Positions 1,373 to 23,738 of a stretch of DNA of 23,738 bases are shown here, piece after piece. The notes beneath the pieces are model-generated. The model saw only the letters and a program-made list of their open reading frames with translations. It had not been told where the DNA came from and searched no databases. The DNA lies in IMG/VR virus record IMGVR_UViG_3300030118_002457, positions 1-23,738 of that record, one strand, 5' to 3'. This stretch comes from a virus. Made by a program: the position numbers and the translations under genes. Position 1 is the stretch's first letter; each line of letters begins with the position of its first letter.

Positions 1373-2031
1373 TCTTAAAATCGATAGACCCTGTTATGCG
1401 AGTGTATAGCAGGGTCATTTATTATAAAAAGGGCAGAAAAAGGTTGACTTGGAAGCGTTTATATGATATGTTGATAAATAATACTAAGAGAAAAACTAAT
1501 ACATCGATTTTAAGACTAATATCTATCCCCACATATAGCAAACATAGTATCCTGAAAAAACGGGAAAAGGTTGCAAATCCGATAGAAATATAATCCCATG
1601 ATACCGTTGGTGTTGGCGTTAGCAACACAAGGTAGGTGTAAAAATCAGCAAGGCATTACGGTATATCGAGGCTGATGTAAAATCAAATAACGTGCCAAGA
1701 AGCAGGTAAGCACACCCATACACAATACTACCTAAGCGAAAGCAAAACAAGTCTTCTGGCGGCAGGTAAGCCGGCATTTTGCTGGCGAACCGTGGATAAA
1801 GAGGAGATATAATATACTCCATATATAACACATTATCCAAACATATAATAGGTAAAAGAAAACAAATAACGAAGTTCTAAATGAGCGATAGCGAATAAGG
1901 AACTGAGTTATTAGGTCTTGTAAAGACCTTAGCATAATGACTTAGCCAGTAAGGAACAAACTGACTAAGCCAAGATGGAAAAAATACCCAGGATAATAAG
2001 GGTATGGATATCTACCTTATGATAGGTATCC
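1373..2031 (+). ncRNA. Candidate large structured non-coding RNA, about 660 nt, class not recognised
   Basis: No credible gene lies between 1301 and 2092, yet the stretch is dense with nested, non-overlapping helices. They are 1373-1385/1503-1515 (13 perfect pairs), 1387-1397/1406-1416 (11), 1522-1527/1581-1586, 1610-1614 plus 1616-1617 with 1622-1628, 1630-1635/1728-1733, 1644-1649/1671-1676, 1770-1776/1780-1786, 1793-1799/1833-1839 (enclosing 1803-1806/1817-1820), 1865-1912 (with two tandem G-A motifs), 1913-1919/1923-1929, 1941-1950/1960-1969, 1984-1989/2000-2005 and, directly abutting, 2006-2014/2023-2031. Several helices contain G-U wobbles that would be A-C mismatches on the other strand, so the + strand is the RNA. 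Size, phage context and ornate folding recall giant RNAs such as GOLLD and ROOL, but I cannot match either. A replication primer RNA is another possibility. Confidence 0.68.
1444..1472 (+). promoter_or_regulatory. Candidate promoter within the non-coding region
   Basis: TTGACT (1444-1449) and TATGTT (1467-1472) are 17 bases apart. Initiation near 1480 would start an RNA of about 550 nt covering the 1522-2031 helices and lacking the left arm of the 13-pair helix. A GATAAATAA box (1473-1481) follows immediately. This and the candidate at 1286 are competing explanations for where the RNA begins. Confidence 0.35.
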
Positions 2032-2576: not shown

Positions 2577-5575
2577 TGACAAACGTTACGGTATCAGAAA
2601 CAAAATATAACGTTACGATTGCAGAGACAAATCAAAACGTTACAACAACAAGCACAGGTGCGATTAATGTATCAGTTAACGCAACTGACTTAGCAACAAG
2701 CATAGCAAACGCAGGCGGTGGTGCAGAAGTACTTAAAACATTAGAAAACAATGTATTAACAGCAAGAACCATTACAGCAAATACAGAAGGCGATATCGTA
2801 GTATCCACAGTAGGCGATAATATCGACTTAGCATTATCAGACAATATTGAAGTAGCATCACTAAACGTTAGCGGTACAATAACAAATACAGCCGGAGGCG
2901 CAGTAGCCAACTTCGCAACAGCAAATGTAAATGGAACATTAACAGCAGGAAACATAGACGGAGCGGCGACTATCGATGGTACGGGTAATATTATTATTAC
3001 ACCTGGCTCAAGCAACTTCGTACATGTAAATACAAACTTAAGCGTAGGTAATACTTCAACACCACAAGGCGTAGAAATATTAGGAACAAGCATAGGTAAA
3101 ACTAGTGGATCAGCAACAGACATTACATTCACAGGAAACTTCAACGGTGACTTAACTGCAGGAACAACAAACATAAGTGGGCATCTTATCCCAGTTACAG
3201 ATGATACACACGACTTAGGTTCATCATCAAAAAGATTTAGAGATTTATATTTAGGACCCGGGTCCCTTTTTATCAACAACCAGAAAGTATTAGAAGACGA
3301 TAGTGGTACTATTAAAGTTAGTTCAACAAACAACTTAACAATAGAAAGTGGTGGAGACTTAACACTATTATCAACAAACAATACATCAACAATACAAGAT
3401 ACAACAATCAATCTAGGACCGTCAAATAATACAGGAACAACAAATATTAGAGGCACTCTAGATGTAGTTACAAAACTAGAAGTAGGTGATACAGACTTAA
3501 CATCAGGGTTATTACACCACGATGCATCAAACGGAAACTTCGAACTTAGAACAAACGGCACAGGCTTTACACATATAAACACAGCAGACTTATATGTAGG
3601 GCCACTGTCAGGTGCAGTAAAGATTGACGAAAATAGTATAGGTGTTACAGCAGGAACTCTAACAGTTACAGGTAATCTAGTAGGTAATGTTACAGGACAG
3701 GTATCAGACTTAAGTAATAAATCAACATCAGACTTAAGTGAAGGGTCAAACTTATATTATACAAACGCAAGAGCAGACGCAAGAGTTAATAACGCAATAT
3801 TAGACGAAGACGATTTTAGTTCAGACAGTGCAACCAAAGTCCCGTCACAACAAAGTACAAAGGCGTATATCGCTTCACAAATACAAACAAAAGATAATAC
3901 AGATGAGATAACAGAAGGCTCAAGCAACTTATACTTTACAAATGCAAGAGCAAGAGCGGCTATCTCAGAAGATAGCACACAGTTATCATATAACAGTTCA
4001 ACAGGTGTATTATCATATACACAAGGTAATACAGATACAGTAGCAGAAGGTAGTTCAAACCTTTATCACACATCAGCAAGAGCAATCTCTGCCGTAGAAG
4101 GTGAAAGCACACTAGACTTAAGTGGAGCAGTTACAGTCACAGGACAACTTACAGCAAACGATATTATCAAAGTAGATGATGGCTTTATCTTAACAGCGTT
4201 CAATCCATATGGCACAGGATCAAATATGCCTACAAGTATTATGGGTGTAGGACAAGAAGATGGATGGGCAGGCGTACATGTAAGAAACAGAGGCGCACAC
4301 GACTTCGGATTAGGCTCAGGACTTAACTTCTCACCAAGAGCATTGATGGTTATGTCAGCAGGTCGTAAGTCAGGATCAAGTGACGATTACTTAGATAACG
4401 GAGATGAGTTCGGCGTATTATCATTCAATCCATACACAGGATATAAGACTGGTGCAGAATGGTTGACAGGCTCAGCAGAGATTAGTGCATTAGCAACTGA
4501 AGACCATAGTACAACAGGCTTAGGAACTAAAGTCCGTATCGCAACAACAGAGAACGGTGAAGAAGCAGGAGCATCAGAAAGTTCTCATACAAATAAACAT
4601 ATCGATATTCAAGGCACAACTATCACAACAAGTGATACACTAAAGATTGATGACGCCTTAATCATTACAGGTAATATTACAAACGATGGTGGCGATGTTA
4701 CAGTAGCAGATACATTGAAAGTTACAGGAGCAACAAGCAACTTCACAACGTTCGGTGATAATACTATTACATCAAATAACTATGCAATACATGGGTTAAA
4801 GATACAAGCAGACGATACAAAGTGGGGCGCACTAGTACTAAAAGAGTTCGTAGGTGGTGCAAACAAACCAGCAGTATCAGGCTTCTCAAATCCAACGTTC
4901 GGAACAGAACTAGTAGGTGGCACTCCGAGTTCTCCAGCGGCAGTGGCGTCAGGTAAAAGAACTTTAGTATTACAATCTATAGCGGCAAACGAAAGTGACG
5001 GAACATTACCAGGCACAGCAGGTGCAATGGTTAAGTTCGAAACAAACGAAGCACAAACAACTTCAGCGATGGGACATAAAGTAGCCATTGAAAGTATAGG
5101 TAATGGTAATACAACACGTGCATCAAGTATTGTATGTAATGGTGCAAACATTACTTTACATGCAGAAGGCACAGCAAACTTATCAACTGGTGGAGACCTA
5201 AACATCAATGACGATGTTATTATTACAGGCACACTAAATCAGCAAGGTGCAATCTCAAATAGTACAGGTGACGTTACAGTAAATGATAACTTAAAAGTTA
5301 ATAACAATCTTACAGTAGATGGTAATACACAGTTAGGTAATGCAAATACAGATACAGCAACCGCAACTGCTAAACTTATAGCACAAAACGGTTTCAACAA
5401 TACAGTATTAACAACAACAGTAGCAAATCAACTTATAGGCTTCGGAGTAGTTCAAGCAGGAGACCAAGCATTCATATCAGATGGAAACGCAGGATCCCCT
5501 TGCATGGCCTTTAGCCCAGACGGATCATCCTGGAAGAAAATGCATTCACCAGGCGATAATATTAGTAGTTCATAA
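2576..5575 (+). CDS. Large tail fibre / receptor-binding protein, 999 aa
   Basis: This is a long beta-rich, Thr/Ser/Asn-rich protein of the marine phage fibre type. Residues 3-29 are three 9-residue repeats beginning NVT. Around residue 220 is the widely seen fibre motif RFRDLYLGPGSLFINNQ. Three EGSxNLYxTxAR repeats follow near residues 387, 445 and 489. Two larger modules, at about 535-690 and 735-865, resemble each other and a module in the second fibre gene at 21366. They share a GDEFGVL/GDRFGVI-type core, or its equivalent, and an ATTENGEEA/MTTEAQTGS-like strand. The C-terminus (GSPCMAFSPDGSSWKKMH) resembles a fibre tip. No Shine-Dalgarno site is seen; initiation is probably coupled to the gene before. 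The role in host recognition is inferred from family style and composition. Confidence 0.88.
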   Translation: MTNVTVSETKYNVTIAETNQNVTTTSTGAINVSVNATDLATSIANAGGGAEVLKTLENNVLTARTITANTEGDIVVSTVGDNIDLALSDNIEVASLNVSGTITNTAGGAVANFATANVNGTLTAGNIDGAATIDGTGNIIITPGSSNFVHVNTNLSVGNTSTPQGVEILGTSIGKTSGSATDITFTGNFNGDLTAGTTNISGHLIPVTDDTHDLGSSSKRFRDLYLGPGSLFINNQKVLEDDSGTIKVSSTNNLTIESGGDLTLLSTNNTSTIQDTTINLGPSNNTGTTNIRGTLDVVTKLEVGDTDLTSGLLHHDASNGNFELRTNGTGFTHINTADLYVGPLSGAVKIDENSIGVTAGTLTVTGNLVGNVTGQVSDLSNKSTSDLSEGSNLYYTNARADARVNNAILDEDDFSSDSATKVPSQQSTKAYIASQIQTKDNTDEITEGSSNLYFTNARARAAISEDSTQLSYNSSTGVLSYTQGNTDTVAEGSSNLYHTSARAISAVEGESTLDLSGAVTVTGQLTANDIIKVDDGFILTAFNPYGTGSNMPTSIMGVGQEDGWAGVHVRNRGAHDFGLGSGLNFSPRALMVMSAGRKSGSSDDYLDNGDEFGVLSFNPYTGYKTGAEWLTGSAEISALATEDHSTTGLGTKVRIATTENGEEAGASESSHTNKHIDIQGTTITTSDTLKIDDALIITGNITNDGGDVTVADTLKVTGATSNFTTFGDNTITSNNYAIHGLKIQADDTKWGALVLKEFVGGANKPAVSGFSNPTFGTELVGGTPSSPAAVASGKRTLVLQSIAANESDGTLPGTAGAMVKFETNEAQTTSAMGHKVAIESIGNGNTTRASSIVCNGANITLHAEGTANLSTGGDLNINDDVIITGTLNQQGAISNSTGDVTVNDNLKVNNNLTVDGNTQLGNANTDTATATAKLIAQNGFNNTVLTTTVANQLIGFGVVQAGDQAFISDGNAGSPCMAFSPDGSSWKKMHSPGDNISSS
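2582..2662 (+). repeat. Three 27-bp repeats at the fibre N-terminus
   Basis: Codons 3-29 of the fibre encode NVTVSETKY, NVTIAETNQ and NVTTTSTGA. The DNA repeats the core AACGTTAC at the start of each unit. The first two units match well and the third only in its first half. This looks like a recent internal duplication in the likely virion-attachment end of the fibre. Confidence 0.6.
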
Positions 5576-5838: not shown

Positions 5839-7173
5839 ATGCAAATAGAACAAATGGAGATAACCAGTCTCCAGCCTTATGAACGCAATCCGCGTAAAAA
5901 CGATAAGGCAGTAAAAGTGGTGGCGAACTCTATAGAACAATATGGATTTCAACAGCCTATAGTAGTAGATAACGATAGAGTAATCATCGTTGGACACACT
6001 AGATACAGAGCGGCAAAAACACTGGGACTACAGAAAGTACCAGTATTAGTAGCAAACGAACTGACTGATAAACAAGCACAGGCGTATCGTATTATGGATA
6101 ATAGATCCAACGAGAACGCAGACTGGGACGAACAAGCATTGTTCCAAGAGTTAGAAGACTTGATAACAGACAGTACGATACAAGATTTAGCGTATGACAC
6201 AGGTTATACTGAGAACGAACTTGAAAGATTATTCAGAGAAGATGAAGATCCAGTAGAGAAGTACGCAGAAACACAACAGGTCAAAGCAAAGCGTGGAGAC
6301 CTATATACATTAGGAGAACATAAGTTAGTATGTGGAGATAGTACAAACGCAGAACACTTAAAGTTACTATTAGGAGACGAGAAAGTAGATTTAATATGGG
6401 AAGATCCGCCTTATGGAATATCTTATGTTACAGCAAATAACATAAACTATAACACAAGAGAAAATACACTCAGAGATAGACATAGAGCGATTAAGAATGA
6501 CGACTTAACACCAGAACAACTAGACGAACTGTTGAATGGTCATATGGAAGCAATCTTACCATATTGGAGACAAGGCGCATCGATATATTGGAGTCACGAT
6601 ATAAGATTTACGCAACAGTTTAGAGACATGCTAAACAAACACGGCGTACATATAAGTGACACCTTAATATGGAAGAAAAAGAACGCATCTAACTGGATGG
6701 CAGATTACGCAAAGTTCTATGAACCAGTATTATATGGATGGCGCAAAGGAGCAGAACACAACTGGTACGGGAAGAATATGAACCCGAATGTAAATGACTT
6801 AGATGAGTACGACAAGATGTCGAGAGACCAACTATTAAAAATAGTAAAGTCCATACACACAAATGTCTTTACTTTCGGTAGAGAAGATGCTAAAACAGTA
6901 GATATTCATCCTACAGTAAAGCCAGTAAAACTTATAGGGTATCATATAATGAACTCTACACAACCTGGGCAAATCGTATATGACGGCTTCTCAGGATCAG
7001 GATCAACACTGATGGCGTGTGAGAAAACAGGCAGAACTGGTAGAGCAATAGAATATGAACCAAAATATGTAGATGCTATCATAAAAAGATGGCAAGAAAA
7101 GACAGGAGCAGTAGCAAGACACATAGACGGAACGCTATGGAATGACAAGGAGTATTACGATGAAGGGCAGTAA
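5839..7173 (+). CDS. ParB-like nuclease domain / DNA methyltransferase fusion, 444 aa
   Basis: Residues 5-100 are a ParB N-terminal-like domain with the signature GHTRYRAAK (52-60). The rest is a beta-class amino-methyltransferase, with catalytic motif IV DPPYG (189-193) before the AdoMet motif I FSGSGST (384-390), and HPTVKPV (357-363) just ahead of motif I. Such fusions (COG1475 plus COG0863 type) methylate adenine N6 or cytosine N4 in DNA and are common just upstream of phage terminases. The role is probably protection of phage DNA from host restriction or marking of DNA for packaging. Target specificity cannot be read from sequence. GGGAG precedes the ATG by six bases. Its end overlaps the small terminase start. 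Confidence 0.92.
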   Translation: MQIEQMEITSLQPYERNPRKNDKAVKVVANSIEQYGFQQPIVVDNDRVIIVGHTRYRAAKTLGLQKVPVLVANELTDKQAQAYRIMDNRSNENADWDEQALFQELEDLITDSTIQDLAYDTGYTENELERLFREDEDPVEKYAETQQVKAKRGDLYTLGEHKLVCGDSTNAEHLKLLLGDEKVDLIWEDPPYGISYVTANNINYNTRENTLRDRHRAIKNDDLTPEQLDELLNGHMEAILPYWRQGASIYWSHDIRFTQQFRDMLNKHGVHISDTLIWKKKNASNWMADYAKFYEPVLYGWRKGAEHNWYGKNMNPNVNDLDEYDKMSRDQLLKIVKSIHTNVFTFGREDAKTVDIHPTVKPVKLIGYHIMNSTQPGQIVYDGFSGSGSTLMACEKTGRTGRAIEYEPKYVDAIIKRWQEKTGAVARHIDGTLWNDKEYYDEGQ

Positions 7174-23454: not shown

Positions 23455-23730
23455 GTGCCCAGGAAAAAATACACAGTTCTAAACCCTGATAAGTTCAAAT
23501 ACGCAGGTGCAAGAATAAAGAACCGAAAACAACCATTAAATGGTAGAGATGGTACCATAATCGTAGATCCTGCGGTTAACATGCAACTGATACCTACAAA
23601 CGCAATAATCACAACAACACTAACACCAAGAGTATCCTTCTGGGAGATACATTTCGGTAAAAATGGTGAATATGGTGAAAAAGATATAGAAAAACTCGCA
23701 AAAAGACTTGACGCGGTTGCATTTATGTGA
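23455..23730 (+). CDS. Last gene of the genome, hypothetical, 91 aa (GTG start)
   Basis: The frame opens at GTG 23455, seven bases after the previous stop. A GGGAGAG site lies about ten bases upstream. No ATG exists in this frame before the conserved-looking core, so GTG is likely. The product has a basic start (RKKYTVLNPDKFKYAG), a small beta region (GRDGTIIVDPAVNMQLIPTN) and an acidic/basic helical end. I do not recognise a family. Its 3' end is repeated at 1-88, and in the circular genome it runs up to the promoter and small-RNA region. Confidence 0.75.
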   Translation: MPRKKYTVLNPDKFKYAGARIKNRKQPLNGRDGTIIVDPAVNMQLIPTNAIITTTLTPRVSFWEIHFGKNGEYGEKDIEKLAKRLDAVAFM

Positions 23731-23738
23731 TATAGTAG
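23643..23738. repeat. Right copy of 96-bp terminal direct repeat
   Basis: This matches bases 1-96 except at two positions (A here versus G18; C here versus A55). It covers the 3' end of the last gene and the promoter-like TTGACG/TATAGT pair. See the left copy for the meaning of the overlap. Confidence 0.85.

Follow-up and report, generated by a model that had tools for sequence, protein, structure and literature searches.

The gene-free gap and the limits of the transcript

The stretch of DNA analyzed here (the window) is 23,738 bases long and tightly packed with genes, its total non-coding sequence amounting to ~1.5 kb. The largest gene-free gap of the record, 792 bases at positions 1301 to 2092, lies between a gene for a 138-aa HNH-like protein (884–1300) and a small membrane-protein-like ORF (2093–2227). 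The longest plus-strand ORF within the gap is 81 aa (1348–1593), the ORFs inside the gap had no match in Pfam, and an alignment of the region with the nearest relative contains gaps whose lengths are not multiples of three; no reading frame is therefore conserved. The initial annotation had proposed that the region holds no credible gene and had read it as an ornate plus-strand RNA of 660 to 790 nt. The absence of a gene was confirmed, and the RNA is large, structured, and of plus sense, but its size is closer to 450 nt, since the same 660 to 790 nt also include the terminator of the previous unit, a promoter, and a downstream terminator.

Folding was more stable than expected by shuffling. 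The plus strand of positions 1373–2031 gave a z-score of -4.87 (minus strand, -3.44) and the plus strand of 1478–2092 a z-score of -5.02, with the observed energy reached by none of the 20 shuffles. The corresponding regions of relatives gave -4.47 (L054), -4.39 (phage DSL-LC06), -3.49 (L055), and -2.95 (L322), and L053, taken singly, folded only modestly better than its shuffles (-1.64).

On the plus strand, a hairpin at 1387–1416 with a T-rich tail reaching 1424 has the form of an intrinsic terminator for the transcript before it; equivalent hairpins are present in L053, L054, L248, L051, and L052. In the window it is followed by a sigma-70-type promoter, TTGACT (1444–1449) and TATGTT (1467–1472) separated by a 17-bp spacer, with TG before the second hexamer. 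By itself, a promoter consensus scan did not exceed shuffles, so the assignment rests on recurrence: a similar promoter with 17-bp spacing heads the copies in L054, L053, L248, L322, L328, and L055 (seven copies with the window), while inspection or scanning revealed no such promoter at the RNA start in L036 and DSL-LC06. From the placement of terminator and promoter, the structured RNA proper was taken as ~1478–1929 (~450 nt), its start set by the promoter and its end by a 3′ hairpin. A terminator scan placed a second terminator-like hairpin downstream at 2004–2033, the element extending to 2040. Two of the G-U wobbles that had been offered as marks of the sense strand belong to the flanking elements, 1394/1409 to the terminator hairpin of the preceding transcript and 2011/2026 to the downstream hairpin; the plus sense itself is supported.

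A perfect 13-bp inverted repeat has its left arm at 1373–1385, just 5′ of the upstream terminator, and its right arm at 1503–1515, near the 5′ end of the RNA, the two arms flanking the terminator and the promoter. It had been drawn as a helix within the RNA. Because it crosses both elements, a transcript started at the promoter cannot form this helix internally; the right arm has its complement in the 3′ UTR of the transcript before it, and the 5′ end of the RNA could pair there. The repeat appears at the same place, with other letters and perfect complementarity, in L054 (11 bp) and L053 (13 bp), and in a shorter form in L248 (8 bp). None was seen by inspection in L322, L328, and L055, and it is therefore not universal.

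The T4-late-promoter-like motif ATAAATA occurs at 1474–1480, overlapping the promoter region, and at 2060–2066, upstream of the gene at 2093–2227; it equals NATAAATA, the late promoter motif of T4-like cyanophages (PMC2984593). All six copies in the window (at 189, 289, 1305, 1474, 2060, and 10603) are intergenic and on the plus strand, with none on the minus strand, against a shuffling expectation of 11.4 over both strands. Related contigs displayed a similar bias, and no T4-type late sigma factor was recognized despite these motifs.

Structure and covariation of the 3′ module

In the 3′ module (1865–1929, plus strand), a long hairpin carrying tandem G-A motifs at two places abuts a 7-bp terminator-like hairpin. 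The outer helix of the long hairpin (1865–1870/1907–1912) is followed by the first tandem G-A (1871–1872/1905–1906), an inner helix (1873–1877/1900–1904), the second tandem G-A (1883–1884/1893–1894), and, at the tip, a 2-bp stem (1885–1886/1891–1892) closing a loop at 1887–1890. The abutting hairpin, AGGUCUU-GUA-AAGACCU (1913–1929), is the likely 3′ end of the RNA; it has no good T run in the window, and a T run comes after its equivalent in DSL-LC06. The coaxial junction noted at 1912/1913 is correct and conserved among the copies.

Relatives of the locus were collected from either side of the gap, L050 to L056 via the gene at 2238–2576 and the terminase, and L248 to L250 and L255 via the HNH-like gene queried as an alignment. 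The HNH-like protein as a single query found no relatives, and its alignment retrieved only distant proteins from bacterial genomes; in alignment A2 of this family, lysine or asparagine seems to stand where the catalytic histidine is usually found (RVKN). Since L250 is identical to L053 over the region and L249 over its first 567 bases, the three were counted once.

The 3′ module is common to L053 and L054, and a covariance model built from these two only, with the window left out (R1), found the window at E = 5.8e-7 (E-values here and below are rough, because the model calibration was short). R1 also matched L328 (3.5e-14), L322 (5e-14), and L055 (~1e-4 to 0.001); L055 pointed to a DNA methylase beside the RNA, and the methylase search yielded L322 and L328. 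A model from six copies (R2) then found L036 (2.4e-4) and matched the GenBank phage DSL-LC06 (OR003941) at 1209–1287 (1.4e-4), in an unannotated gap; the annotated genes on its two sides stop at 572 and begin at 1328. The shape of the RNA is kept, with its letters changed, in at least eight different phages, the relatives being aquatic phage contigs plus DSL-LC06, for which its authors reported Pseudomonadota hosts and proposed a new family (PMC10611076). The terms "non-coding" and "ncRNA" are absent from the searched text of that paper.

Searches by other routes added little. Querying GenBank phages at the nucleotide level with the window and with L322 returned nothing significant, and matches to the pattern TTAWYRGGTCTTGTAAA in IMG/VR were mostly due to chance. 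The covariance model, run against further records behind the terminase and HNH relatives, gave only a weak match beyond L036. A weak match at L335 1501–1573 (8117–8189 of the L003 record; E = 0.08 with R2 and 0.05 with R3) was not counted as a member; that contig carries a terminase 81% identical.

In the six-copy alignment, 96.8% of cells were paired and 18 of 27 pairs had changed on both sides; none of 500 shuffles reached either value, and slid structures reached at most 4. With eight copies, 96.6% of cells were paired and the doubly changed pairs rose to 22 of 27 (0 of 500 shuffles), so that covariation is present at the 3′ module across eight sequences. Of the three outcomes that the initial annotation had named as refuting, none held for this module: the helices covary, no frame is conserved, and the fold is better than that of shuffled sequence. 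Helices were misplaced when MAFFT aligned the copies that had diverged most; A8 and A12 are alignments made to fit the model, which biases them towards the structure. Independently of the model, the minimum-energy fold of L055 alone reproduced the same 3′ module. Most copies show both tandem G-A motifs, and G-U pairs outnumbered A-C mismatches 4:1, a small count in line with the plus strand. We consider a conserved structured RNA well supported and, for the 3′ module, very nearly certain.

The 5′ module and the promoter slot

The 5′ module is more variable than the 3′ module, with some compensatory changes. Between the window and L322 it is 81% identical over ~300 nt, and the two-sequence alifold consensus has a z-score of -6.5. 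Pairs predicted from the window only were kept in 76% of cells in L322, against 33–44% for slid pairs. Double changes between the two numbered 6 (shuffled mean 3.8, maximum 9), and with so few, support for the 5′ module comes mainly from energy and weakly from covariation.

Among the candidate helices of the plus strand, a hand-picked one at 1547–1551/1600–1604 reads GUAUC/GAUAC in the window and GUCUC/GAGAC in L322 and L054; it competes with the alifold consensus pairing 1550–1553/1802–1805. Helix 1562–1565/1594–1597 has one double change, as does 1644–1649/1671–1676 relative to L322, and the hairpin GUGUUGGC/GCAACAC (1610–1628) is invariant between the window and L322. Further 3′, helix 1751–1756/1803–1808 encloses hairpin 1770–1776/1780–1786 with compensatory changes relative to L322, the alifold consensus offering as an alternative the pairing of 1754–1755 with 1798–1799. 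The RNA looks mosaic in its build, as the 5′ part of L322 resembles the window and its 3′ part is closest to L053 and L054.

In L052, L056, and L255, a gene for a 183–195-aa protein takes the place of the RNA behind the equivalent promoter (4980–5567, 4061–4612, and 1828–2415, respectively; 48–41% identical). The same slot in L051 holds a gene for a 184-aa protein that is 16% identical and maybe unrelated. The 183–195-aa family had no significant match in Pfam or PHROG, and the low-confidence predicted structure of the 195-aa protein (pLDDT 68) had no Foldseek match. RNA and slot protein occur together in none of the sequences in hand; as most relatives are contig fragments, the absence of either from a relative is a weak test.

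A small conserved protein, 60% identical between L055 (729–917) and L325 (2441–2650), is encoded ahead of the RNA in L055; in L325 its gene comes before a different long stretch of non-coding DNA, where neither R1 nor R2 gave a match.

Known RNA families and the role of the RNA

Comparison with Rfam 15 disclosed no match in the window at the gathering threshold and nothing credible at lax thresholds (E up to 10 for the window, L053, L054, and L055; up to 5 for L036 and L322), GOLLD, ROOL, OLE, introns, tmRNA, and HEARO included. Neither tRNA genes nor, with ARAGORN, a tmRNA were found in the window and eight related loci, and there was no Rfam match to HEARO or omega RNA; in place of the IscB-like gene that accompanies those RNAs, the neighboring gene encodes the 138-aa HNH-like protein. 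The RNA belongs to an undescribed family, in no Rfam family, in agreement with the initial annotation, which could match it to none.

The best reading of these sequences, ahead of a leader, a particle, a primer, or an intron, is in our view a free-standing, trans-acting early phage RNA of ~450 nt, which we hold to be somewhat more probable than its alternatives taken together. Host RNA polymerase would make the RNA early in infection, the transcript would end at the 3′ hairpin, and the RNA would act in trans. The 3′ module could be a common handle, for stability or protein binding, and the variable, exchangeable 5′ module could carry the phage-specific activity; its most probable mode of action would be binding to a protein or RNA of the host or the phage, in favor of takeover or gene control. 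The RNA may have the host-hijacking role suggested earlier. A more speculative extension, which we think improbable, is a new class whose members share a 3′ module and exchange their 5′ modules, and in which RNA and protein fill the same promoter slot with the same early function in an aquatic phage family without recognizable replication genes. The RNA is of compact size, can be detected in new genomes by its covariance model, and is present in a named GenBank phage; it offers structure determination, and searches of other aquatic phage genomes, a defined target.

Alternatively, the RNA could be a cis-acting leader. It would then form a long 5′ UTR and regulate the gene downstream, for instance through attenuation or antitermination, as phage put or riboswitch-like leaders do. 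It lies directly after a promoter, and put-type antiterminator RNAs and phage leaders are likewise structured RNAs just downstream of a phage promoter. In L053, L328, and L055, a DNA methylase gene starts just after the RNA, which fits a leader and speaks against a free-standing RNA; the window and L054 have no methylase gene directly after it. However, the RNA is much larger than the put type, downstream genes vary among the phages, and no riboswitch family gave a credible match at lax Rfam thresholds. The 3′ hairpin of DSL-LC06 is a terminator, after which comes a 12/12 promoter for the next gene, and the next gene in L322 also has its own promoter, which points to a separate unit. The window itself has a terminator-like hairpin and ATAAATA before the next gene. 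A leader is unlikely in our estimate.

Few families of large structured RNAs are known to come from phages, and even the best-known, GOLLD and ROOL, have yet to be assigned a function. GOLLD is often near tRNA islands, and ROOL forms an RNA-only oligomeric cage. The present RNA might similarly assemble into an RNA-only particle, like GOLLD or ROOL in action and unrelated to them in sequence. It shares with ROOL the character of a large structured phage RNA, and with GOLLD, which is encoded by phages or prophages and is large, with a conserved 3′ region and a variable 5′ region (PMC12286853), a likeness in plan, though not in sequence or structure. Unlike either, it has no tRNA genes nearby; it is shorter than ROOL and about half the length of GOLLD, and neither covariance model matched any of the six copies at the lax thresholds (E up to 10 in four of them, up to 5 in L036 and L322). 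We regard a particle as decidedly unlikely.

The replication primer raised in the initial annotation could be a preprimer at an origin, by analogy with the RNA II of ColE1, a structured RNA of similar length (~500 nt) that a strong promoter drives in a replicon lacking a replicase of its own. The present RNA would likewise be promoter-driven, and no replication protein was recognized among the scanned proteins (a subset of ORFs), to which the support for this idea is limited. GC skew has no turning point at the region, direct origin evidence and a family match are both lacking, and the same slot in related phages is occupied by an unrelated protein gene; we think a primer very improbable. A degenerate self-splicing intron or other mobile ribozyme, to which the HNH-like gene upstream and a GGGA/UCCC pairing reminiscent of P4 of group I introns had pointed, is largely refuted and scarcely probable: the RNA interrupts no gene, the group I reading of the 5′ module was dropped when no P7/P3 core fitting both the window and L322 could be drawn by eye, and at lax Rfam thresholds the six copies gave no credible intron match, the sole intron-type match being to a plastid group II domain V model on the minus strand of L053 (E = 6.1).

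Elsewhere in the window, a gene at 5839–7173 encodes a ParB N-terminal domain fused to an N6/N4 DNA methylase and adjoins the small terminase. The two ends of the record (1–101 and 23638–23738) repeat each other with about two mismatches, which suggests a circular or terminally redundant genome and some strain variation.
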